DNA of 17,081 nt, taken from contig DUTZ01000561.1 of NCBI GenBank assembly GCA_012841845.1, positions 1 to 17,081 of the forward strand. Reading direction: 5' to 3'. Each line of letters begins with the position of its first letter. Within the stretch, counting starts at the first letter, position 1. Of the stretch, positions 3,780-16,206 are shown piece by piece. Both the position numbers and the translations under genes were made by a program. This stretch comes from Actinomycetales bacterium. GTDB taxonomy: Bacteria > Actinomycetota > Actinomycetes > Mycobacteriales > Mycobacteriaceae. The notes below the pieces were generated by a model. That model was given only the letters and a program-made list of their open reading frames with translations, did no database searches and was not told the DNA's origin.

Positions 3780-4631
3780 GTGACCGACACGGTTCCGGCC
3801 CCGACGGGGACCGACGGCTGCCGCGCGGTGCGCCCCGGCGAGGCCCGGGCCGTGGCCGAGGTGCTGGCGGGGGACCCGCTGGTGGCCTGTCCGTCCGCGG
3901 AGGCGTTCGCCCGGACCGGCGTCCGGCCGGGCCCCGAGGGGCGCTTTCTCACGCACGGCGGTCCCGGGCGGTCTCTGCTCTTCGTGGGGAACTCGGTGCT
4001 GCCCCTGCGGGGCGGACGCGACGACCTGCGCGCGTTCGGCCACGCCGTGGCCGACGTGGCCGCGGGCCCGCTGTCCGTGCACGGACGCCGCGAGTACGTC
4101 GCCGCCGTGTGGGACACGCTCGGTGACTACTGGGATGCGCGGGAGATCCGCGACCGCCAGGTCCTCATGGTCGACCGGGGCCGGGCCTCCGTCGGTCCCG
4201 CCCACCCCGGCGTCCGCCCGGCGGCGCTCGGGGAGTTCGATCTCGTCCTGCCCGCGGCCGCGGCGATGTACCGGGAGGAACTCGGCGCGGACCCCTTCGA
4301 GGTGGGCGGGGGTGTGCCGTTCCGGCGGCGGGTGGCCCGGGCGCTCGCCCGGGGCCGCACGTGGGTGTGGGTGGACCGCGGCGAGGTGGTGTTCAAGGCC
4401 GACGTGTCGGCGGAATCGACCCGGGTCGCCCAGCTCCAGGGGATCTGGGTGCGCCCGGAGCGGCGGGGGACCGGGGTGGGTACGGCCGGTACGGCCGCCG
4501 TCTGCGCCGCGCTCCGGCGCCGCGGTCTCACCCCGTCGCTCGTGGTCAACGAGACCAACGTGGCGGCGGTCCGGGCGTACCGACGCGCCGGCTTCACCGT
4601 CGCCGTCGCCTACACCACTGTACTGGTGTAG
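3780..4631 (+). CDS. GNAT-family N-acetyltransferase with N-terminal DUF4081-like domain
   Basis: The 283-residue product resembles the actinobacterial family of M. tuberculosis Rv2867c, which sits in the same place after gcpE. Residues of about 20-110 form the family's N-terminal DUF4081-like region. The C-terminal half is a GNAT acetyltransferase fold. The acetyl-CoA pyrophosphate-binding loop is RRGTGVG at 228-234, preceded by the beta-strand LQGIWVRPE, and NETNVAAVRAYRRAGF at 257-272 is the usual alpha4 region. The acceptor substrate is unknown. GTG at 3780 is 4 bases after the ispG stop, indicating the same transcript. A hairpin downstream may end that transcript. Confidence 0.88.
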   Translation: MTDTVPAPTGTDGCRAVRPGEARAVAEVLAGDPLVACPSAEAFARTGVRPGPEGRFLTHGGPGRSLLFVGNSVLPLRGGRDDLRAFGHAVADVAAGPLSVHGRREYVAAVWDTLGDYWDAREIRDRQVLMVDRGRASVGPAHPGVRPAALGEFDLVLPAAAAMYREELGADPFEVGGGVPFRRRVARALARGRTWVWVDRGEVVFKADVSAESTRVAQLQGIWVRPERRGTGVGTAGTAAVCAALRRRGLTPSLVVNETNVAAVRAYRRAGFTVAVAYTTVLV

Positions 4632-4655
4632 AGGGCATTTCCCGGCGGAGAGTAG

Positions 4656-4673
4656 CAGGGGCGCCGGCTCCTG
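4656..4673 (+). terminator. Candidate hairpin terminator after the dxr-ispG-GNAT operon
   Basis: Positions 4656-4662 (CAGGGGC) pair with 4667-4673 (GGCTCCTG region) through seven pairs including one G-T wobble, around a four-base loop. It begins 24 bases after the GNAT stop. A T-tract is missing, which is common in high-GC actinobacteria, so this is a plausible rather than proven terminator. Confidence 0.35.
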
Positions 4674-4738
4674 TGGGGCTGTTCCCGCCTTCCGGAAAAC
4701 CACTTCTCCACGAGTGCATTTGCGCTGGTCGGGCCCGG

Positions 4739-4765
4739 TAAAATCTCTTCGAGAATAGTGATTTT
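4739..4765 (+). promoter_or_regulatory. norZ promoter region: TAAAAT -10-like box overlapping an interrupted palindrome
   Basis: TAAAAT at 4739-4744 is one of the best -10-like hexamers in the window. It overlaps an inverted repeat with arms AAAATC (4740-4745) and GATTTT (4760-4765), six exact base pairs around 14 bases. An operator laid over a promoter in this way would suit a dimeric repressor or activator. A NO- or oxygen-responsive regulator is the natural guess because norZ is downstream, but the sequence does not identify the protein. The -35 region is poor (TGCATT at 4715-4720, 18 bases upstream). The stretch 4632-4870 is clearly AT-richer than the flanking genes. Confidence 0.45.
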
Positions 4766-4870
4766 GAAAGTGGCCGAACCTCTGTCGCGAACGGGGGGAC
4801 GGGGGCTATGTTGTCTGCGCGAGACTTCGTTCCACTCCCGTCCTCTTCGTCTGTAGCAAAGGTGGCCATC

Positions 4871-7306
4871 GTGGCGTTCAGCGTTGATCAGCAGCCCTCG
4901 AAGGCGGAGATCGCGATCTCCAAGGGATGGGTCCAGGGCGTCGCCCTGGTCATGATCTTCGGGTTCCTCATCATGGGGGTCCTCGCGTTCCGCACCTACT
5001 CCGACTCGATGCCCCAACCGAGCCGGGTCGTCACCACCGAGGGCGACGTCGTCTTCACCGGCGAGGACATCACCTCCGGGCAGGAGATCTTCCTCCGCCG
5101 TGGCCTCCAGCAGTACGGGTCGATCGTCGGCCACGGCGGCTACCTCGGGCCCGACTACACGGCCGAGTACCTCCGGCTCTCCAGCGAGCACGTGCTCGAG
5201 GACCTGCGCTCCCAGGGGGTCCGGGACCCGTCGGTGGCGCTCGTGGAGATGATGCGGGACAACCGCTACGACGAGGCGAGCGGCACGCTCGTGTTCACCC
5301 CCGAGCAGGCCCGGGCCTTCGAATCGATCCGTGCCCACTACGCCGAGTTCTTCGGGGTGGACACGACCGAGCACGGACTCATCCCGTCGGCGATCACCGA
5401 CCCGGACCAGATCCACGACCTCACGGCCTTCTTCGGCTGGACCGCGTGGGCCGGCGCCGCCGAACGCCCGGGACTCGACTACTCGTACACCAACAACTGG
5501 CCCCCGGAACCGATGGTCGAGAACCATCCCACCGCCGAGGTCCTCGTGTGGTCCGCGATGTCGCTGGTGGCGCTCCTGGGCGGACTGGGGCTGCTGTTCG
5601 CGCTCTACGGACGGTGGAGCAAGACCATCGGGTGGCACGGCAGCGAGTCACCGACGCTGGCGTTCCTCCAACCGGGGCAGGTGGGGATCACCAAGGCCCA
5701 GAAGGCCACGGCGTGGTTCTTCCTCGTCGTCGCCGTCCTGTTCCTCATCCAGCTCATGGTCGGCGGCGCGATCCAGCACTACCGCTCCGACCTCACCAGC
5801 TTCTTCGGCATCGACCTCGCGCAGGTGCTGCCGTTCAACCTCGCCCGGACGTGGCACGTTCAGCTCTCGCTGCTGTGGACCGCCGCGGCCTTCCTCGCCG
5901 CGGCGATCTTCCTCGCGCCCATCATCTCCGGCCGGGAACCGAGGCGGCAGCACTGGCTGGCGTACGGGCTGCTCGGCGCGCTGGCGGTCGTGGTCGCCGG
6001 CACGCTGGTCGGGACCGCGGTGAGCACCTTCGGCCCGGAGTGGGCGGAGGGGTCGATCTTCTTCGACCAACAGTGGGAGTACCTGGACCTGCCGCGATTC
6101 TGGCAGATCCTGCTGGTGATCGGCCTCTTCCTCTGGTTCGTCATCATCTACCGGGCGATCCGGTCGCGGCTGCGCACGGAGTCGAAGTTCAACATGCCGT
6201 GGCTGTTCCTCTACGCGGCCCTGGCGATCCCGGCCTTCTACGCGGTGGGGCTGCTCGCCGGCACCGAGACGCACCTCACGGTGGCCGAGTTCTGGCGGTT
6301 CTGGGTGGTCCACCTGTGGGTCGAGGACTTCCTCGAGCTGTTCACCACGGTGATGGTGGCCTACATCTTCGTCATGCTCGGGGTGGTCCGGCGCAAGATC
6401 GCCATCCAGATCATCTTCCTCGACATCATCCTCTACTCGGCCGGCGGCGTGATCGGCACGATGCACCACCTGTACTTCTCGGGGACACCCGTCGAGCACA
6501 TGGCCCTGGGCGCGTTCTTCTCCGCGCTCGAGGTGATCCCGCTGACCTTCCTCACCGTCGAGGCCTGGACGTTCCTCCAGCTCGGCGCCCGGCAGGAGTC
6601 GCGCAGCGCCGCCCCGTTCCCGCACCGGTGGGCGGTGATGTTCCTCGTGGCCGTGGGCTTCTGGAACTTCGTCGGCGCAGGGGTCTTCGGCTTCCTCGTC
6701 AACCTGCCGATCGTGTCCTACTACCAGATCGGCACGGCGCTCACCGCCAACCACGCGCACGGCGCGATGATGGGCGTCTACGGCATGCTGGCGATCGGCC
6801 TCGCGCTCTTCGCCCTGCGCTACGTCATCCCGCCGCAGCGCTGGCCCGACAAGCTGGCCAAGATCTCCTTCTGGTCGCTCAACATCGGTCTGGCGTGGAT
6901 GGTGTTCGCCACCCTCCTCCCGCTGGGCGTGCTGCAGCTGTGGTCGTCGGTCAACGACAGCTACGTGGAGGCCCGCTCCCTGCGCTACCTCACCGAACCC
7001 GGCAACGCCGTCCTCGAGTGGATGCGCCTGCCCGGCGACTTCCTCATGATCCTCGGCGGCGCCCTGCCGTTCCTCTGGATCGCGTGGCTCGGCGTCCGGC
7101 ACGGCATCAGGGCCACGGTCACGCGGATGGAGCCGGAGACCCTCTTCGTCGAGGAGCACGAGGCCGCCCGCGGGGACCGGACCGGTGAGATGGCCGGCGT
7201 CGGCGCGGGGACCGGGGCACAGGGTGACGACGAGGTGATCCCGCCGAGCCGGAGCCGCTACGCCTCGGACCGGCGGACGGCCGAGGACCCGGAGGCCGGG
7301 TCGTGA
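4871..7306 (+). CDS. norZ: Quinol-dependent nitric oxide reductase (qNOR, NorZ)
   Basis: This integral membrane heme-copper-oxidase relative reduces two NO to N2O with electrons from (mena)quinol, for NO detoxification or denitrification. The product has 811 residues, slightly longer than typical qNOR because of a polar C-terminal tail. After a first membrane helix comes the extracytoplasmic cytochrome-c-like region without heme c (GQEIFLRRGLQQYG), then about 13 membrane helices. Expected ligands are present: His329 (TWHVQLS), His481 and Glu485 (VHLWVED), His532-His533 (MHHLYF), and His628 and His630 (NHAHG) for the hemes and non-heme iron. I prefer GTG 4871, which has AAAGG 8 bases upstream, over ATG 4808: the intervening codons are poor in G/C third positions, unlike the genome. 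The tail contains RYASDR at 796-801. The stop overlaps the next gene by 4 bases. Confidence 0.95.
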   Translation: MAFSVDQQPSKAEIAISKGWVQGVALVMIFGFLIMGVLAFRTYSDSMPQPSRVVTTEGDVVFTGEDITSGQEIFLRRGLQQYGSIVGHGGYLGPDYTAEYLRLSSEHVLEDLRSQGVRDPSVALVEMMRDNRYDEASGTLVFTPEQARAFESIRAHYAEFFGVDTTEHGLIPSAITDPDQIHDLTAFFGWTAWAGAAERPGLDYSYTNNWPPEPMVENHPTAEVLVWSAMSLVALLGGLGLLFALYGRWSKTIGWHGSESPTLAFLQPGQVGITKAQKATAWFFLVVAVLFLIQLMVGGAIQHYRSDLTSFFGIDLAQVLPFNLARTWHVQLSLLWTAAAFLAAAIFLAPIISGREPRRQHWLAYGLLGALAVVVAGTLVGTAVSTFGPEWAEGSIFFDQQWEYLDLPRFWQILLVIGLFLWFVIIYRAIRSRLRTESKFNMPWLFLYAALAIPAFYAVGLLAGTETHLTVAEFWRFWVVHLWVEDFLELFTTVMVAYIFVMLGVVRRKIAIQIIFLDIILYSAGGVIGTMHHLYFSGTPVEHMALGAFFSALEVIPLTFLTVEAWTFLQLGARQESRSAAPFPHRWAVMFLVAVGFWNFVGAGVFGFLVNLPIVSYYQIGTALTANHAHGAMMGVYGMLAIGLALFALRYVIPPQRWPDKLAKISFWSLNIGLAWMVFATLLPLGVLQLWSSVNDSYVEARSLRYLTEPGNAVLEWMRLPGDFLMILGGALPFLWIAWLGVRHGIRATVTRMEPETLFVEEHEAARGDRTGEMAGVGAGTGAQGDDEVIPPSRSRYASDRRTAEDPEAGS

Positions 7307-7938
7307 CGGGGATCGCCGTGTCGGCCTGGCTCGCCGCCGGCTACGGTGCGGTCCTCGTCCTGGTGGCCTACGCCATCGACAGGATGGCGCGCCGCGCGCA
7401 GACCAGGCTGCAGGAGCAGCGCACGCCGGGGTTCGTCTACCACGAGGACCACGACGCCTGGCTGTGCCCCGAGGACCAATGGCTGTGGCCGCGGTCGTTC
7501 GACCCGGACAACAGGGTGATGCGCTACCGGGGAAGCCCCTCGGTGTGCAACTCGTGCCCGGTCAAGGAGAGCTGCACCAGCTCCGCGGACGGGCGCGAGA
7601 TGCGCCGGATGGTCGACACGTGGCCGGCGTCGGAGTCGGCGCGCTTCCACCGCGGGATCGCCTGCGCGGTCACGGTCGCGGCGGTGGCGTGGCCGCTCGC
7701 GTCGGTCCTCGCCGAGGACGGCTGGGCCGCCCGCGGATTCCTCCTCGGTGTCTCCCTCGCCCTGGTCGTGGCGTCCCTCCCGCTGTGGGCGCACCTGCGC
7801 CGGACGCCGGCGGACCCGCACGGCGTGCTCGTCCAGACGGTGGACCAGAACCTCGAGGTCCGCACGTCCGACGCCGACGCGCTGGCGCGCCGGCGTACCC
7901 GTTACGCCTCCGACCGGAAGGTGGTTCGTGATGTCTAG
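7303..7938 (+). CDS. Membrane-anchored four-cysteine protein, zinc-ribbon-like, unknown function
   Basis: The 211-residue protein has one membrane helix at about 5-26, a soluble region at 27-115, and a membrane hairpin at about 116-136 and 143-164. Positive charges after the first and last helices (RMARRAQTR, HLRRTP) place the soluble part in the cytoplasm. This part holds Cys55, Cys82, Cys85 and Cys91 in the pattern C-X26-C-X2-C-X5-C, with YHEDHDAWLCP, VCNSCPVKESC and GREMRR. That layout resembles the cysteine-rich segment near the C-terminus of IS1182-type transposases, but the DDE catalytic part is absent. It probably binds zinc or an iron-sulfur centre (inference). The C-terminal RYASDR at 200-205 repeats a motif in the NorZ tail. 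The start overlaps norZ as GTGA; the end overlaps the slipin gene by 8 bases. The function is not known to me. Confidence 0.85.
   Translation: MTGIAVSAWLAAGYGAVLVLVAYAIDRMARRAQTRLQEQRTPGFVYHEDHDAWLCPEDQWLWPRSFDPDNRVMRYRGSPSVCNSCPVKESCTSSADGREMRRMVDTWPASESARFHRGIACAVTVAAVAWPLASVLAEDGWAARGFLLGVSLALVVASLPLWAHLRRTPADPHGVLVQTVDQNLEVRTSDADALARRRTRYASDRKVVRDV
7916..7921 (+). promoter_or_regulatory. Ribosome binding site deciding the slipin start
   Basis: GGAAGG lies 9 bases before ATG 7931, inside the end of the preceding gene. It favours 7931 over longer in-frame starts. Confidence 0.7.
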
Positions 7939-8773
7939 TGTGGTGATCGCCCTCGTCGCGGTGATCGTCGTGGTGGGGCTGCTCGTGGCCTCGCTCCGCG
8001 TGGTCCGCGAGTACGAGCGGGTGGTGGCCTTCCGCCTGGGCCGGCTCCGCGGGGCGCTCGGGCCGGGGCTGGTGTTCATGATCCCGCTCCTCGACTCGTT
8101 GGTGAGGGTGGATCTGCGCGTGGTGACGCTGACGATCCCGCCGCAGGAGGTCATCACGCGCGACAACGTCACCGCGCGGGTCAACGCCGTGGTGATGTTC
8201 AGGGTCTCCGACCCGGTCAAGTCGGTCATGGCGGTCGAGAACCACGCCGTGGCCACCTCCCAGTTCGCGCAGACCACCCTCCGCTCCGTGGTGGGCCGCG
8301 CGGACCTCGACACGCTGCTCGCGCACCGGGCGGACCTCAACGAGGACCTCGCCGCCTCCATCGCCCGGCAGGCCGAACCGTGGGGCGTCGAGGTGTCGGT
8401 GGTGGAGATCAAGGACGTCGAGATCCCCGAGATGATGCAGCGCGCGATGGCGCGGGAGGCCGAGGCCGAGCGCGAGCGCCGCGCCAAGGTGATCAGCGCC
8501 CACGGTGAGCTCCAGGCGTCCGAGGAGCTGCGGGACGCCGCGCTGACGCTGAGCGAGGCACCGGCGTCGCTGCAGCTGAGGTACCTGCAAACCCTCCTCG
8601 AACTGGGCGCCGACCAGAACTCGACGGTCGTGTTCCCGCTCCCGATGGACGTCGTGGGCCCGCTGGTCGACGCGGTCGGGCGCATGGCCCCCGACCACGG
8701 CGCCGGGACCCGCGGACGCAACGGCGTGACCCGTAGGCCGGACATCCCCGCAGAGGAAGGTGTGACCCGATGA
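7931..8773 (+). CDS. Slipin/stomatin-type SPFH (band 7) membrane protein
   Basis: SPFH proteins oligomerise on membranes and act as scaffolds or modulators for proteases, transporters and respiratory complexes. This 280-residue example has an N-terminal hydrophobic anchor (about 4-22) and the slipin start VREYERVVAFRLGRL. A band-7 domain to about residue 180 follows, including GPGLVFMIPLLDSLVRVDLR, and then a charged helical, probably coiled-coil stretch (MAREAEAERERRAKV, about 175-215). It lacks the long repeat region of flotillins. The start overlaps the four-cysteine gene by 8 bases and the stop overlaps the next gene as ATGA, so it is translated as part of the norZ chain. A role in organising or stabilising NorZ is an inference from position only. 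Confidence 0.92.
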   Translation: MSSVVIALVAVIVVVGLLVASLRVVREYERVVAFRLGRLRGALGPGLVFMIPLLDSLVRVDLRVVTLTIPPQEVITRDNVTARVNAVVMFRVSDPVKSVMAVENHAVATSQFAQTTLRSVVGRADLDTLLAHRADLNEDLAASIARQAEPWGVEVSVVEIKDVEIPEMMQRAMAREAEAERERRAKVISAHGELQASEELRDAALTLSEAPASLQLRYLQTLLELGADQNSTVVFPLPMDVVGPLVDAVGRMAPDHGAGTRGRNGVTRRPDIPAEEGVTR

Positions 8774-9069
8774 CGGACGCTGCGAACGACCCCGCGCCCC
8801 CCGGACGGCCGGTGGTGTTGGTGCCGACCCCGCCGGGGTTCTGGATGGCGGTCCTCGGGGTGTGCATGGCCGCGATCTCCCCGCTGTTCGGGTTCCTCGT
8901 CGGCACGATCCTCGGGACCCCCGCCGGGGACCAGGTCTTCGGCCCGGCGTTCCTCGGGCTGTTCATCGGCATCGCGTTCGGTGCGGTCGGCGTGGTGGCG
9001 GCGGTGATCGGCGGACGCCGGCTCTGGGTGGCCCTGCACCGGGACGGAACCGCGGAGCCGGCGTCGTGA
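8770..9069 (+). CDS. Small membrane protein, 99 residues, unknown function
   Basis: The product has a short proline-rich cytoplasmic N-terminus and two predicted membrane helices (about 24-46 and 62-84), with a short polar C-terminus. I recognise no domain. AGGAAGG at 8754-8760 is 9 bases before the ATG, and the ATG overlaps the slipin stop by 4 bases (ATGA). Third positions are G/C as in the neighbouring genes, which supports real coding. It belongs to the norZ chain. Confidence 0.8.
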   Translation: MTDAANDPAPPGRPVVLVPTPPGFWMAVLGVCMAAISPLFGFLVGTILGTPAGDQVFGPAFLGLFIGIAFGAVGVVAAVIGGRRLWVALHRDGTAEPAS

Positions 9070-9488
9070 CCTCGACCGTGACGCCGACGGGTCCGGCCAC
9101 CGGGGCGCCGGCCCCCCGGTTCCGCTCCGACGCCCCCGTCGAGCGGGGCATGCGCCGTGTCCTGCGGGTCGACCGCCCCGACCGGGCCGCCGGGGCCGGC
9201 GCACACCGGGCGTTCCGGGTCTCCGTGGCGGTCTCTGCGGTGCGGTGCGTCATCACCTACCTCGCGGTCCCGGTCCTGGTCCCGCTGGTGAGCCTGTCCG
9301 GCTGGGTCGCCGCCCCGGTGGGCATCGCCCTGTGCGTGGTCGCCGTGGTCAACGGGATCGTCAGTGTCCGCCGCTTCTGGGCCGCCGACCACCCGCGGCG
9401 GTGGATGTACACCGGCTTCATGGGAGTCGTCTTCGTGATCCTCGGGATCGCCCTGGTCTCCGAGCTGACCCGATGGGGGGTGATGTGA
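9066..9488 (+). CDS. Small membrane protein, 140 residues, unknown function
   Basis: From the GTG at 9066 the protein has a polar, proline- and arginine-rich N-terminus (about 1-50) and three predicted membrane helices (about 52-77, 81-101 and 115-134). The loop RRFWAADHPRRW between the last two helices carries aromatic and basic residues. No family is recognised. The GTG overlaps the previous stop by 4 bases (GTGA). An upstream in-frame start exists within the 99-residue gene but would require a long overlap and a non-hydrophobic arginine-rich extension, so it is rejected. Confidence 0.72.
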   Translation: MTSTVTPTGPATGAPAPRFRSDAPVERGMRRVLRVDRPDRAAGAGAHRAFRVSVAVSAVRCVITYLAVPVLVPLVSLSGWVAAPVGIALCVVAVVNGIVSVRRFWAADHPRRWMYTGFMGVVFVILGIALVSELTRWGVM

Positions 9489-9622
9489 TGACCGCGGGTG
9501 CACACGACCGGGAGTCCGACCTCCCGGACGAGAAGCCGAGCGAACTGGAGAGCGCGCTGCTCACCCTGTCGATGTTCGGCGGGCTCGTCCTCTTCGGCCT
9601 CGGCTGCCTGGTGATGTGGTGA
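9488..9622 (+). CDS. Very small single-helix membrane protein, 44 residues
   Basis: ATG 9488 shares one base with the stop of the preceding gene (TGATG), a classic translational coupling junction. The product has an acidic, hydrophilic N-terminus ([14 protein letters not shown]) and one membrane helix at about 23-43, ending two residues or so after it. This is the shape of small subunits of respiratory oxidases and reductases, but sequence similarity was not established. It is the last gene of the norZ chain. Confidence 0.65.
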
Positions 9623-9666
9623 GGGCGCCCCGGCCCCGGGCCCTCGACCGGCCCGCGGCCGCGGGC
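9621..9666 (+). terminator. Two GC-rich hairpins closing the norZ chain
   Basis: GAGGGC at 9621-9626 pairs with GCCCTC at 9640-9645, with further pairing inside the loop; it begins at the stop of the 44-residue gene. A second, perfect 16-base palindrome follows at 9651-9666 (centre GCGGCCGC). No T-tract follows. They sit just upstream of the map promoter-like box, so termination of the norZ transcript is the simplest reading. Confidence 0.45.
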
Positions 9667-9671
9667 GGACC

Positions 9672-9677
9672 TATCCT
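9672..9677 (+). promoter_or_regulatory. -10 element of map, leaderless configuration
   Basis: TATCCT fits the actinobacterial TANNNT -10 pattern and ends 6 bases before the map ATG. Transcription would begin at or very near the A of the start codon. GGAG at 9678-9681 is only 2 bases from the ATG, too close for a normal ribosome binding site, which favours the leaderless reading. Confidence 0.5.
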
Positions 9678-9683
9678 GGAGCA

Positions 9684-10559
9684 ATGACCTCCGCGACCCG
9701 TCCGCCCCTGACCCCCGGTGAGCCCACCCCGATCCGGACCGTGCCCGAGTCCGTCCCGCGTCCCGAGTACGTGTGGAAGGACCGGGTGGCGGAGAACATC
9801 GGCGAACCGTGGGTGCAGACGCCCGAGGTGATCGAGGCGATGCGGGCCGCGTGCACGCTCGCGGCGGACGCGCTCGCCGTGGCGGGCGCGGCGGTGGCGC
9901 CCGGGGTGACGACGGACGAGATCGACCGGATCGCCCACGAGTACCTCTGCGACCACGGCGCCTACCCCTCGACCCTCGGCTACAAGGACTTCCCCAAGTC
10001 CTGCTGCGTCTCGCTCAACGAGGTGATCTGCCACGGCATCCCCGACTCGACCGTGATCGCCGACGGCGACATCGTCAACATCGATGTCACCGCCTACCTC
10101 GGGGGCGTCCACGGCGACACCAACGCCACGTTCCTCGCCGGGGACGTGAGCGAGGAGAACCGGCTCCTCGTGGAGCGCACCGAGGAGGCCATGAACCGGG
10201 GGATCCGGGCCATCCGGCCGGGCCGCGAGGTCAACGTCATCGGCCGGGTGATCGAGTCCTACGCCCGCCGCTTCGACTACACGGTGGTGCGCGCCTTCAC
10301 CGGCCACGGCGTGGGTCCGACCTTCCACAACGGCCTCGTGGTGTTGCACTACGACGACCCGGCGCGCACCGAGGTGCTCGAGCCGGGGATGACGCTGACG
10401 GTGGAGCCGATGATCGCGCTCGGCGGGGACGGCTACGACGTGTGGGACGACGGGTGGACCGTCACCACCGCGGACAAGGCCTGGACGGCCCAGTTCGAGC
10501 ACACCGTCCTGGTCACCGAGGACGGCCACGAGGTCCTCACGCTCCCGTCCGACCGGTGA
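9684..10559 (+). CDS. map: Methionine aminopeptidase, type I (MapB-like)
   Basis: This cytoplasmic metalloenzyme removes the initiator methionine from nascent proteins. The 291-residue product aligns with mycobacterial MapB, including its N-terminal extension of about 40 residues with the SH3-binding-like proline-rich stretch. All five metal ligands are visible: Asp134, Asp145, His208, Glu241 and Glu272. His117 in ICHGIP is the substrate-binding histidine, and [12 protein letters not shown] and [15 protein letters not shown] are family hallmarks. The ATG at 9684 is supported by a leaderless-type promoter. The stop overlaps the cobQ GTG by 4 bases. Confidence 0.96.
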
Positions 10560-12133
10560 CCGCGGGCGCGCTGCTCGTCGCCGGCACCACCTCGGACGCC
10601 GGCAAGAGCGCGGTGGTGGCCGGGCTCTGCCGGCTGCTCGCGCGGCGCGGGGTCTCTGTGGCGCCGTTCAAGGCGCAGAACATGTCCAACAACTCGGTGG
10701 TCACCGCCGACGGCGGCGAGATCGGCCGGGCGCAGGCACTGCAGGCCGAGGCCGCCGGCATCCCGGCGACCGTGGACCTCAACCCCGTGTTGCTCAAGCC
10801 CGGCTCCGACCGCACCTCGCAGCTCGTCCTGCGCGGCCGGGCGGTGGCCGAGGTCGGCGCCCGCGACTACCACGCTCACCGCGGCGCGCTGCTCGCCGAG
10901 GTGACGGCCGCGCTCGCGGACCTGCGCTCCCGCCACGACGCGGTGATCTGCGAGGGCGCGGGCTCGCCGGCGGAGATCAACCTGCGTGCCACGGACCTGT
11001 CCAACATGGGTCTGGCCCGCGCCGCGGACCTGCCGGTCGTCGTGGTGGGGGACATCGACCGCGGCGGGGTGCTGGCCCACCTCGCCGGGACGGTGGGCGT
11101 CCTCGAGCCCGCCGACCAGGCGCACGTGGCCGGCTTCGTCGTCAACAAGTTCCGCGGTGACCCCGCGCTGCTCGCACCGGGGCTGGACATGGTCGCCGGT
11201 CTCACCGGCCGCCCGGTGCTCGGCGTCCTGCCGTTCCTCGAGGACCTGTGGATCGACGCCGAGGACTCCCTCGGCACGACCGTCGGCAGCGTCGTCGGGC
11301 GGCCCGGACCACCCCGGGGCTCCCGGGGCCTGAGGGTGGCCGCGGTCCGCCTGCCCCGCGTGTCCAACTCGACGGATGTGGAGGCGCTGGCGTGCGAGCC
11401 CGGCGTCCGGGTGACGTGGGTGGACCACCCGGCCGCGCTGGTCGGGGCGGACCTCGTCGTGCTGCCCGGCACCCGCGCCACCGTGTCCGACCTGGGCTGG
11501 TTGCGGCGGACCGGGCTCGCGGACGCCGTCCTCGGCCATGCCCGCGCCGGGGGAGCCGTGCTCGGGATCTGCGGCGGCTTCCAGATGCTGGGCCGACGGA
11601 TCGTCGACCCGGTGGAGTCCGGGTCCTCGACACCCGTCGAGGGCCTGGGTCTGCTCGACGTGGAGGTGGACTTCGCGCCCGACAAGGTGGTCCGTCGACG
11701 CGCGGGGGTCGACCGGTCGTCCGGGGGCGGGGTGGCGGTCGAGGGCTACGAGATCCACCACGGACGGGTGACCCGGGCCGCCGAGGCACCCCTGCTCGAC
11801 CTCGGCGACGACGAGGGGGAGGGGGCGCGCCGCGGTGCCGTCGCCGGGACGCACTGGCACGGACTGCTCGCCTCCGACGCCTACCGCCGCGGGTTCCTCA
11901 CCGACCTCGCCCGGCGCATCGGGGCCGACGGGTTCCGCGTGGCCCCGGACGTCTCCGTCGCCGCGGTGCGCACCGCGCAACTCGACCTGCTCGCCGACGC
12001 GATCGAGGAGCACTGCGACGTCCCCGCGCTGCTGCGCCTGCTCGAGGCCGGCGTGCCCGCCGGGCTCCCCACCCTCGCCCTCACCCGGTCCGACGCCGCG
12101 CGAGCGGCCGGGCGGCGCGGCGGGCCCGCCTAG
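10556..12133 (+). CDS. cobQ: Cobyric acid synthase (CobQ)
   Basis: CobQ amidates four carboxylates of adenosylcobyrinic acid a,c-diamide with glutamine and ATP, a late step of cobalamin synthesis. The 525-residue protein starts with the P-loop-like GTTSDAGKS, the signature [10 protein letters not shown] and [12 protein letters not shown] typical of CobQ rather than CobB. The C-terminal half is a class I glutamine amidotransferase domain with nucleophile Cys339 in [11 protein letters not shown] and the His433/His435 region in THWHG. The GTG start overlaps the map stop (GTGA), so the two are co-translated. The stop codon overlaps the convergent mtr stop. It lies apart from the other cob genes; a chelatase subunit gene lies 4 kb downstream. 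The BioD-like P-loop is intact, so the enzyme should be active. Confidence 0.95.
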
Positions 12134-13530
12134 AACCCGCGGTCCGGGAAGTCGAGCCCCAGCAGCGCGTTCTCGACGACCTCGGCCAGGGCCGGGTGGA
12201 TCCAGTACTGGCCGCGGGCGAGCTGCGGCACGGTCTGCCCGAACTCCATGGCCTGGACGAGGATCTGGACGAGCGACGGCGCGTGCGCGCCCATGAGGTG
12301 GGCGCCGAGCAGCAGGCCCGTGGCCCGGTCGGCGACGAGCTTGCAGCAGCCCACCGAGTCCTCCATGGCCCAGCCATAGGCCACGTCGCCGTAGTCCTGG
12401 CACTTCACCGTGACGTCGTACCCGGCCTCGCGCGCCTCGGCCTCGGTCATCCCCACCGAGGCCACCTGGGGCCAGGAGAACACCGCGTACGGGACGGTGC
12501 TGTGGTGGAACGGCTGGAGGTCGTCCGGGTGGCGGAGGTTGTGGCCCACGACCCGCTGCTCGTGGTTGGCCACGTGCTTGAGCTGGAAGGGCGAGGACAC
12601 GTCGCCGAGTGCCCACACGCCGTCGGCGGTGGTACGCCCGTATTCGTCCACGCGCACCCGGTCGCCGTCCAGCTCCACACCGGCGGCCCCGAGCCCCAGC
12701 CGGTCGGCGTTGGGCGTGCGGCCGGTGGCCACGAGCAGGGCGTCGCCGGAGCACGTGGTGCCGTCGGAGAACGTGATCTCCACGCCGCGGTGGTCCTCGC
12801 CGGTGGCCGTCATCGCCGTCACCGGGTGGCCCAGGCGGACGTCCCAGCGCGAGCGCGCGGCCTCGGTGAACCGCTCGGCGAGCTCGCGGTCCAGGTGCTT
12901 GAGCAGCACGTCGGAGCGGCCGATCACCGTGACCTCCACGCCGAGCGAGGAGAACACGTGCGCGAACTCGCAGGCGATGAACCCGGATCCCTGGATGACG
13001 AGCGACCGGGGCAGCTCGGGGAGCCGCATGATGTCGTCGCTCGTGTAGTAGGCCACCCCGGCGTCGGTGACGATCTCCGGGACCGACGGGCGGGCCCCGG
13101 CCGCGATGACGACCTGGTCGGCGGAGATGACCGCCCCCGTCCCGGTGTCGATGGTGCGTTCGCCGACGAACGTCGCGTGACCGTCGTACACCGTCACGTT
13201 GTCGCAGCGGTTCCGCCGGTAGTCCTCGCCGCTCGAGGCGATGGGGTCGATCCGGCGGTCGAAGATCCGGGAGACTATGTCGGGCCAGCGCACGCCGTCG
13301 AGCGTCGAGTCCACCCCGTAGGCCGCGGAGTGCCGCACCGCCATCGCGGTGTCCGCGGCGTAGACGAACATCTTGGTGGGGATACACCCCACGTTGAGGC
13401 AGGTGCCCCCGAACGTCCCCTGTTCGCAGATCGCGACGGACTTGTCGGCGAAGGACTCGTCGATGAGCGAGTTGCCGGAACCGGTGCCGATGACGACGAG
13501 GTCGAAGTGGCGGGTGGGGGACGGCGTCAT
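12130..13530 (-). CDS. mtr: Mycothione reductase (NADPH, FAD)
   Basis: This flavoprotein reduces mycothiol disulfide with NADPH and keeps the actinobacterial thiol pool reduced. The 466-residue product has the FAD-binding IGTGSGN near residue 14-20 and the redox disulfide in [14 protein letters not shown] (Cys44, Cys49). The NADPH-binding [19 protein letters not shown] follows, with ATGR, then [18 protein letters not shown], and the interface His445-Glu450 dyad in [23 protein letters not shown] is distinctive of mycothione reductase within the glutathione-reductase family. On the minus strand it follows the hydrolase with a 3-base gap; AGGAG at 13544-13540 is 9 bases before its ATG. Its stop overlaps the cobQ stop. 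Confidence 0.96.
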
Positions 13531-14709: not shown

Positions 14710-16206
14710 GTGACTGCGGATCAGGTGGCAAAGCACGGAACGACGGACGTCGCGCTCATCGGCGCCGGCACCATGAGCGCCACGCTGGGCGCCCTTCTGC
14801 GACGGCTGCAGCCGGAGTGGAACATCGAGGTGTTCGAGCGGCTCGAGGGCCCGGCCCTGGAGTCGTCGGACGCGTGGAACAACGCGGGTACCGGCCACTC
14901 GGCGCTGTGCGAGCTCAACTACTCGCCCAAGACCGCCGACGGTGGCGTGGACATCACCAAGGCCGTCAGCGTCAACGAGAAGTTCCAGGTGTCGCGCCAG
15001 TTCTGGTCGTACGCCGTGGAGAACACGATCCTCGGTGACCCCACCGAGTGGATCCGCCCCGTCCCGCACATGAGCTTCGTGACCGGCGCGGACGGCCAGG
15101 ACTACCTGCGCAAGCGCTACGACGCGCTCGCCGGGCACACCCTGTTCCCCGGCATGAACCACACCACCGACCACGCCGAGCTCGAGCGCCTGGTGCCCCT
15201 CATGGCGCGTGGGCGCTCGGCGGAGCAGCCCTTCGCCCTGAGCTACTTCGACAACGGCACGGACGTCAACTTCGGCGCCCTCACCCGCCAGCTCATCAAG
15301 TACCTCACCCGCACCGGCACCGAGGTCCACTACCAGAACCAGGTCAAGGACCTCGAGCGGAACACCGACGGCTCCTGGCGTCTGACCGTGGTCAACCGCC
15401 ACACCGGTGACGAGCGGACGATCGACGCCAAGTTCGTCTTCGTGGGTGCCGGCGGCGGTGCCCTGCACCTGCTGCAGAAGTCCGGGATCCCGGAGATCCG
15501 CGGCATCGGTGGCTTCCCGGTGGGCGGCCAGTGGCTGCGCTGCACCAACGAGGAGCTGGTCCAGCAGCACCAGGCCAAGGTGTACAGCCAGGCCTCGGTG
15601 GGCGCCCCGCCCATGTCCGTGCCGCACCTGGACACCCGCGTCATCGACGGCAAGAAGGGCCTGCTCTTCGGCCCGTTCGCCGGCTGGACTCCGAAGTTCC
15701 TCAAGCAGGGCAGCTTCACCGACCTGCCGCGCAGCGTCAAGCCGGGCAACCTGCTGCCCATGGCCAACATCGGCATCACCGAGATGGGCCTGGTCAAGTA
15801 CCTCATCACCGAGCTCGCCAAGAACCACTCGGCGCGCGTGGACACCCTGCGCGACTTCGTGCCCTCGGCCGTGGACGGCGACTGGGAGAAGGTCGTCGCC
15901 GGGCAGCGCGTCCAGGTGATCAAGCCCAACGGCCGCGGGGGGACGCTCGAGTTCGGCACCGCCGTGGTCAACTCCGCAGACGGCTCGATCGCTGGCCTGC
16001 TGGGCGCCTCGCCGGGCGCCTCGACGGCCGTGGACGCCATGGTGGACGTGCTCCGGCGCTGCTTCCCGAGCCGCTTCGCCGACTGGAAGCCCGCGCTCGA
16101 GGAGATGATCCCGTCGCTCGGCCGCAACCTCGCCGAGGAGCAGGCCCTGTTCACCGAGCAGTTCGAGCGCTCCACCAAGACCCTCAAGCTCGACCAGCAG
16201 GCGTGA
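14710..16206 (+). CDS. mqo: Malate:quinone oxidoreductase
   Basis: This peripheral membrane FAD enzyme oxidises malate to oxaloacetate and passes electrons to menaquinone, linking the TCA cycle to respiration. The 498-residue protein has the FAD-binding [12 protein letters not shown] at residues 16-27, then [16 protein letters not shown] and [12 protein letters not shown]. These are followed by [48 protein letters not shown] and the C-terminal [15 protein letters not shown]. All are hallmarks of Mqo. The GTG at 14710 has GAGGG 6 bases upstream. The reading frame is intact. The stop overlaps the chelatase GTG by 4 bases. Both NorZ and Mqo meet at the quinone pool, but they are in separate transcripts. 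Confidence 0.97.

Follow-up and report, generated by a model that had tools for sequence, protein, structure and literature searches.

An actinobacterial norZ gene chain links a quinol-type nitric oxide reductase to a membrane protein family and a distinct clade of slipins

Quinol-type nitric oxide reductase (qNOR), the product of norZ, reduces nitric oxide (NO) to nitrous oxide (N2O) with electrons from the quinol pool. Does it have dedicated protein partners in Actinobacteria? The question is raised by a 17,081-nucleotide stretch of Dietzia DNA (the window, meaning the whole stretch: contig DUTZ01000561.1 of assembly GCA_012841845.1, filed as Actinomycetales bacterium), in which norZ is the first of six consecutive open frames on the forward strand whose ends overlap: norZ, gene B for a membrane protein, a slipin gene, and genes D, E and F. 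qNOR has been described as a one-gene enzyme expressed from norZ alone (PMC9976466). The initial annotation of this locus suggested that the six products make up a multi-protein NorZ assembly or include a dedicated maturation set; a dedicated link to norZ is supported for B and the slipin, by gene order and by the clade to which the slipin belongs, more weakly for D, and is not supported for E and F. We put at about 0.6 the probability that the chain is an actinobacterial NO reductase module in which B serves NorZ as an accessory subunit and the slipin acts as a scaffold dedicated to NorZ, perhaps by forming a cage, with motifs in the C-terminal tails of both NorZ and B used for docking.

A B-seeded scan of named genome records found 95 relatives, of which the best 80 were taken, and all 80 loci show norZ, then B, then the slipin gene, all on the same strand (in some, e.g. 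L033, L069 and L016, norZ runs off a contig end or is in pieces). In a class-level sample of 394 genomes there were 18 norZ matches at E 1e-60 or better, reduced to 17, counted as near-full-length, by setting aside a partial one that is 43% identical (G173). B was found at E < 1e-50 in 15 genomes of that sample, every one among the 17 with norZ and with B adjoining norZ by coordinates; strong B matches occurred in none of the remaining 377 genomes, and weak ones in four further genomes, in one of which (G750) the match lies beside norZ. The two norZ genomes without a full B are G750, which has a short B, and G529, whose norZ match holds three stops. In a phylum-level sample of 396 genomes, 12 had a near-full-length norZ (one in two pieces), with B in 10 and the slipin in seven. 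According to the initial annotation, the link would fall if the partners occurred mostly without norZ; for B and for this type of slipin, the 394-genome sample and the slipin tree described below favour the link. Across 72 loci the pairwise divergences of NorZ correlate with those of B at 0.92, and the flanking genes vary between lineages while norZ-B-slipin persists, as judged from gene clustering that is noisy. Two genomes carry two norZ-B-slipin copies each, Brevibacterium daeguense (L008 and L011) and Mycolicibacter sp. MYC340 (L067 and L069); in L011 the contig ends within norZ, and in L069 the norZ frame is short.

Among 72,556 plasmid records, 70 carry a NorZ relative covering at least 80% of the query; among the 15 matches listed, 14 are from Proteobacteria and one is from Streptomyces. 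The same records gave no B match at E 1e-5, a search that also failed to report the short B of a plasmid locus described below (L225), so short forms may escape it.

The junctions are tight. The overlap sizes in the initial annotation are all confirmed from the coordinates of the six frames: 4 bases (7303-7306), 8 bases (7931-7938), 4 bases (8770-8773), 4 bases (9066-9069) and 1 base (9488). In relatives whose B is 47-77% identical to that of the window, the norZ-B spacing is -8 to +9 bases in 72 of 72 cases and the B-slipin spacing -22 to +5 bases in 79 of 79, values biased toward short gaps by the choice of gene starts near the query start. Short junctions kept in relatives this diverged indicate, from sequence, that the arrangement of the chain is beyond chance. 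A scan for promoters and terminators gave nothing exceeding shuffled controls.

NorZ itself (4871..7306, forward strand, 811 residues) looks catalytically complete from its sequence. Its start is ambiguous, either GTG at 4871 or an alternative ATG at 4808. It matches PF00115 (2.2e-55) and PF22085 (1.8e-52), the COX1 catalytic domain and the fused NorB cytochrome-c-like domain, both above cut-off. The motifs HxxxE (residues 481-485) and HH (532-533), which we take to be Fe_B ligand residues, are both present in 72 of 72 intact NorZ sequences, the window's included, and the window protein has no cysteines. It aligns with solved single-subunit qNORs (3ayf; the 28pn/8bgw and 6qq5 groups) over residues 32-735 (with 3ayf) and 23-748, shares their catalytic motifs and, like them, has no heme c site (CxxCH). 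It differs from them in an extra C-terminal tail with the sequence RYASDRR at residues 796-802, and in the gene partners that accompany it in most of the actinobacterial loci examined.

The slipin (7931..8773, forward strand, 280 residues) carries a Band_7 domain (PF01145, 1.7e-39), and its residues 18-247 align with stomatin chains at 5.9e-68, the best solved relatives (9oh9 and others) having 16 chains per entry; homology to these entries suggests that the norZ slipin could form a dome. As a partner of norZ, the claim of the initial annotation stands for one type of slipin, whereas slipins in general occur mostly without norZ: matches at E 1e-50 were found in 77 of 296 class genomes, 66 of which lack the norZ-linked type. 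The 11 best places (at least 310 bits and at least 65% identity) are all in norZ genomes and adjoin norZ, and the next place scores 280 bits. A tree was built from 39 linked slipins (33 from the 80 loci, the window's own and five more) and 19 unlinked ones (places of known locus from the 296-genome scan); one branch with support 100/99 separates the two sets, so that the norZ-linked slipins are one clade by sequence. The norZ slipin differs from other stomatin and slipin domes, PH1511 included, in its linkage to norZ and in having a candidate client in the same operon.

Within the tree the window slipin groups with those of Georgenia, Brachybacterium, Brevibacterium, Ornithinimicrobium and L014, next to Tessaracoccus and Propioniciclava, and not with the mycobacterial or Rhodococcus loci. 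Mycobacteria and Rhodococcus are the nearer kin of Dietzia, and a position away from them fits a lateral arrival; the chain probably reached this Dietzia by lateral transfer. L014 is a metagenome-assembled genome labelled Acidobacteria that holds the entire chain from norZ to F; in the tree its slipin pairs as sister with the Ornithinimicrobium one (L027), which may reflect transfer or misbinning.

Gene B (7303..7938, forward strand) encodes a 211-residue protein of an undescribed family, for which the linkage to norZ suggests a role. Database searching gave 947 matches; most of the 120 matches listed are unnamed, and others are called hypothetical or transposase. The second of these names probably arises because a four-cysteine domain of B (C55-x26-C82-x2-C85-x5-C91) resembles the C-terminal part of IS1182 transposases, residues 43-109 matching positions 357-422 of NF033551 at E 4.5e-10. 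The likeness is confined to those residues, which in B are embedded in a membrane protein, and since the match scores 39 bits across 67 residues where the cut-off is 270, B was not accepted as an IS1182 transposase. Nor was it accepted as a WhiB protein (PF02467, 15.5 bits against a cut-off of 23.6). The four cysteine columns are invariant in an alignment of 103 sequences. A model built from these sequences (mean predicted local distance difference test score, pLDDT, 82.5) begins with a long helix, followed by a small domain rich in strands and by two more long helices, and is better in the cysteine region than an earlier model from 44 sequences, which was poor there. The predicted helices are at residues 6-40, 111-135 and 141-163, one N-terminal and two after the soluble domain, and a conserved WPxSExxRFH motif stands at the start of the second. 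Hydrophobicity and charge suggest that all three span the membrane, with the cysteine domain and the tail in the cytoplasm. VIA-align on the model returned mainly helical bundles, and a profile search of the PDB gave two matches at chance level.

A partner gene of the NfeD type is common in the operons of SPFH1 proteins, and some NfeD relatives are described as very weakly conserved (PMC2636767). B, by its model, joins membrane helices to a small strand-rich domain; a Pfam scan of 10 window proteins at E 0.1 gave no NfeD match, and B, D, E and F had no match of any kind above cut-off.

Short forms of B directly follow norZ at L188 and at a Streptomyces plasmid locus (L225). Both keep a WPH[ST]E motif and the later helices and lack the cysteine domain, and the B profile gives them 34.8 and 33.3 bits, where D and E controls reach at most 4.7. 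The membrane part therefore looks like the constant element of B, and the cysteine domain like something inserted or later lost. A short protein at L189 scored 6.9 bits and was not counted as B. L225 is a plasmid of Streptomyces sp. NBC_00271 on which norZ and the short B lie near an annotated truncated haemoglobin and an Rrf2 regulator, with transposase genes flanking, perhaps a mobile NO-defence island.

NorZ and B share a C-terminal motif. In the window NorZ ends in RYASDRR plus nine residues and B in RYASDRK plus five. Across 72 pairs in which both genes are intact (71 loci and the window; the frame-shifted L016 and incomplete loci were dropped), a YxSD-type motif occurs in 41 NorZ tails and 33 B tails, in both in 29 cases and in neither in 27. 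A 5-mer is common to the two tails in 27 of 72, whereas shuffled B tails (200 rounds) average 0.6 and never exceed 4, and reversed B tails give 2; NorZ and slipin tails share one in 2 of 72. When the 80 loci and the window (1,118,702 bases) were searched in six frames, the tail motif turned up only in norZ and B, two matches in L016 that were labelled "other" lying at the norZ and B places. In the window's own genome a back-translated pattern, which does not cover the window's B tail variant, gave two matches (norZ and one unrelated 448-residue frame) against one for the reversed control. Mycobacterial and other lineages (L187, L109-L112, L056) have an alternative conserved B tail, [YF][AST][AST][RKQ]WG, in place of YASDRR, and the B tails of L007 and L027 carry two YxS[DE]RR repeats roughly 20-26 residues apart.

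The remaining genes are less constant. Gene D (8770..9069, forward strand), a small membrane protein of 99 residues, is a frequent member, found by hidden Markov model in 59 of the 80 B-selected loci; the 21 loci without it are all mycobacterial (Mycolicibacter, Mycolicibacillus and one Mycobacterium sp.). Gene E (9066..9488, forward strand; a membrane protein of 140 residues) and gene F (9488..9622, forward strand; 44 residues with one predicted membrane helix) travel together and are present in 16 of the 80. The 22 other genomes of the genus showed no norZ, B or D and no slipin of the norZ type (for B, within a search of 41 genomes that included them), leaving the window genome the sole carrier of 23; the only slipin of these congeners is a paralogue 33-35% identical. 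The borders of the chain are native neighbours in the genus, a GNAT/DUF4081 gene on the left (3780..4631, forward strand) and map on the right (9684..10559, forward strand; methionine aminopeptidase, TIGR00500 above cut-off). In all 22 congeners (L120-L141) the GNAT gene is followed by map, with no recognised gene between them in 11 and with E between them in 11, at the interval where the window genome holds the six-gene chain. E can thus exist without norZ, and E and F were rejected as dedicated NorZ subunits, contrary to what the initial annotation suggested.

Named close homologues of E are found in Dietzia sp. B32, D. aurantiaca and D. kunjamensis, and elsewhere E is rare, with 2 of 345 class genomes matching, the window's own included, the other match being weak. 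An F-like frame follows the solitary E in four congeners, by BLAST and translations inspected by eye, where the F profile found none. The solitary E sites were aligned to the window to look for traces of the genes norZ to D, and among the matches listed there were short scattered ones only. The E N-terminus was considered as the place of a further, third tail-motif copy (FRSD type) that disappears with norZ, and the idea was dropped as unsupported by the counts (strict SD in 10 of 17 against 4 of 11, p 0.44); under a relaxed test they were 14 of 17 and 4 of 11 (p 0.02), with the L016 and window rows unparsed and L004 misread.

If the chain is an NO reductase module, NorZ would reduce NO with quinol-pool electrons while B sat beside it in the membrane, offering a three-helix scaffold and, in most of the lineages seen, a cytoplasmic four-cysteine domain that probably binds metal. 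Like stomatin and HflKC with their clients, the dedicated slipin would gather the complex of NorZ and B or enclose it, and the YASDRR-type tails of the two proteins may dock on the slipin or on another common partner. Translational overlap may help the products to meet during synthesis; D would probably belong to the same assembly in most lineages, and E-F would be an optional add-on able to persist alone. There are precedents for parts of this picture. Stomatin is described as assembling 16 subunits into a cage with a width of about 12 nm (PMC12344292), its domes are reported to enclose the red-cell membrane proteins AQP1 and UT-B, HflKC is known to enclose FtsH (PMC12407830, a preprint), and SPFH proteins matter for respiration in E. 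coli (PMC12005517). The flotillin-associated rhodopsins likewise pair an SPFH gene with one membrane energy protein, in a clade of its own; they involve flotillin and rhodopsin rather than stomatin and NO reductase, and no B-like protein is mentioned in the part of that report available (PMC10308929). Among the papers listed on NO reductase with SPFH proteins or slipins, and on qNOR gene context, none reports a norZ-B-slipin linkage; a 2026 paper describes the qNOR of Rhodococcus equi, and slipin and SPFH are absent from its main text as available (PMC13332983). The description of qNOR as a one-protein enzyme (PMC9976466) would need revision if, in many Actinobacteria, the enzyme has a near-constant second protein and a private stomatin. 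Enzyme, scaffold and candidate docking peptide in one operon would also make a compact genetic system for studying how stomatin-family proteins choose clients.

Several observations weigh against this reading. The 80 loci with constant order were seeded with B, and the class scan scored few first-look candidates per genome, so that weak or short B genes may be missed. Among 21 norZ loci read from the phylum and class samples, B stands without slipin at L113, L114, L117 and L182, the short B of L188 also lacks it, and L115, L116 and L189 have neither by profiles; B is therefore not dependent on the slipin, and norZ is not always dependent on B. The pLDDT of the B model drops within the cysteine region (block means 56 and 67, residues 81-100), and a Foldseek search with this model gave no match at E 0.001 or better. 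YxSD is missing from 31 of 72 NorZ tails and 39 of 72 B tails, including those of 20 loci without D, all mycobacterial, and both the tail pairing and the NorZ-B divergence correlation are confounded by shared ancestry, which inflates the tail counts. Finally, a single gene is reported to suffice for a working qNOR (PMC9976466).

A stronger form of the proposal, in our estimate rather unlikely, places NorZ and B inside a private stomatin dome, both held there by the YASDRR-type peptide, with the metal domain of B reporting NO. The dome would then confine NO/N2O chemistry, or the lipid and quinol pool, and the locus would supply a stomatin linked genetically to its client, with a docking code that can be recognised. 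It is also conceivable, if unlikely, that neither partner is in the finished enzyme, B being a maturation or metal-delivery factor for the Fe_B of NorZ and the slipin a quality-control platform. The invariant cysteines and the near-constant pairing with norZ would suit such a factor, and the cytochrome c-dependent NO reductase (cNOR) offers a parallel in the accessory genes NorQ and NorD, needed for Fe_B insertion (PMC9976466). NorQ and NorD are an AAA+ ATPase and a VWA-domain protein, whereas B and the slipin match neither kind in profile scans. Maturation by B becomes less likely because qNOR reportedly acquires its Fe_B without the help of further genes (PMC9976466) and because the short B proteins at L188 and L225 lack the whole cysteine domain, which is thus dispensable at some norZ loci.

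Less likely again is a passive linkage, in which an old operon has spread laterally with no physical assembly and the slipin does general membrane work. The patchiness of norZ (17 of 394 genomes), the 66 of 77 slipin-bearing genomes without the norZ type and the persistence of E alone all fit this; the retention of norZ-B-slipin while flanks change (by the same noisy clustering), the separate slipin clade and the motif common to the NorZ and B tails do not. Least likely of all, in our judgement, B would be a membrane-bound sensor whose cysteine domain reacts with NO through an Fe-S cluster or zinc, in the manner of WhiB, and so tunes NorZ or transcription. Its gene follows that of an NO-consuming enzyme, its cysteine spacing is one we take to recall WhiB, and there is the weak Pfam WhiB match below cut-off (E 0.027); the IS1182 match is better, a domain usually taken as zinc-binding, and profile scans found no regulatory output domain in B. 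The NO reductase module, with B and the slipin as working partners of NorZ, remains the reading we prefer.

Around the locus, the GNAT-map interval (window 3780-10559) is a variable site in Dietzia, and dxr, an RseP-like protease gene and ispG lie upstream of the GNAT-chain-map block. A search of the window's own genome for copper nitrite reductase gave a single match, below the family cut-off. Downstream the window also holds a pyridine nucleotide-disulphide oxidoreductase gene (12130-13530, reverse strand) and a malate:quinone oxidoreductase gene (14710-16206, forward strand).

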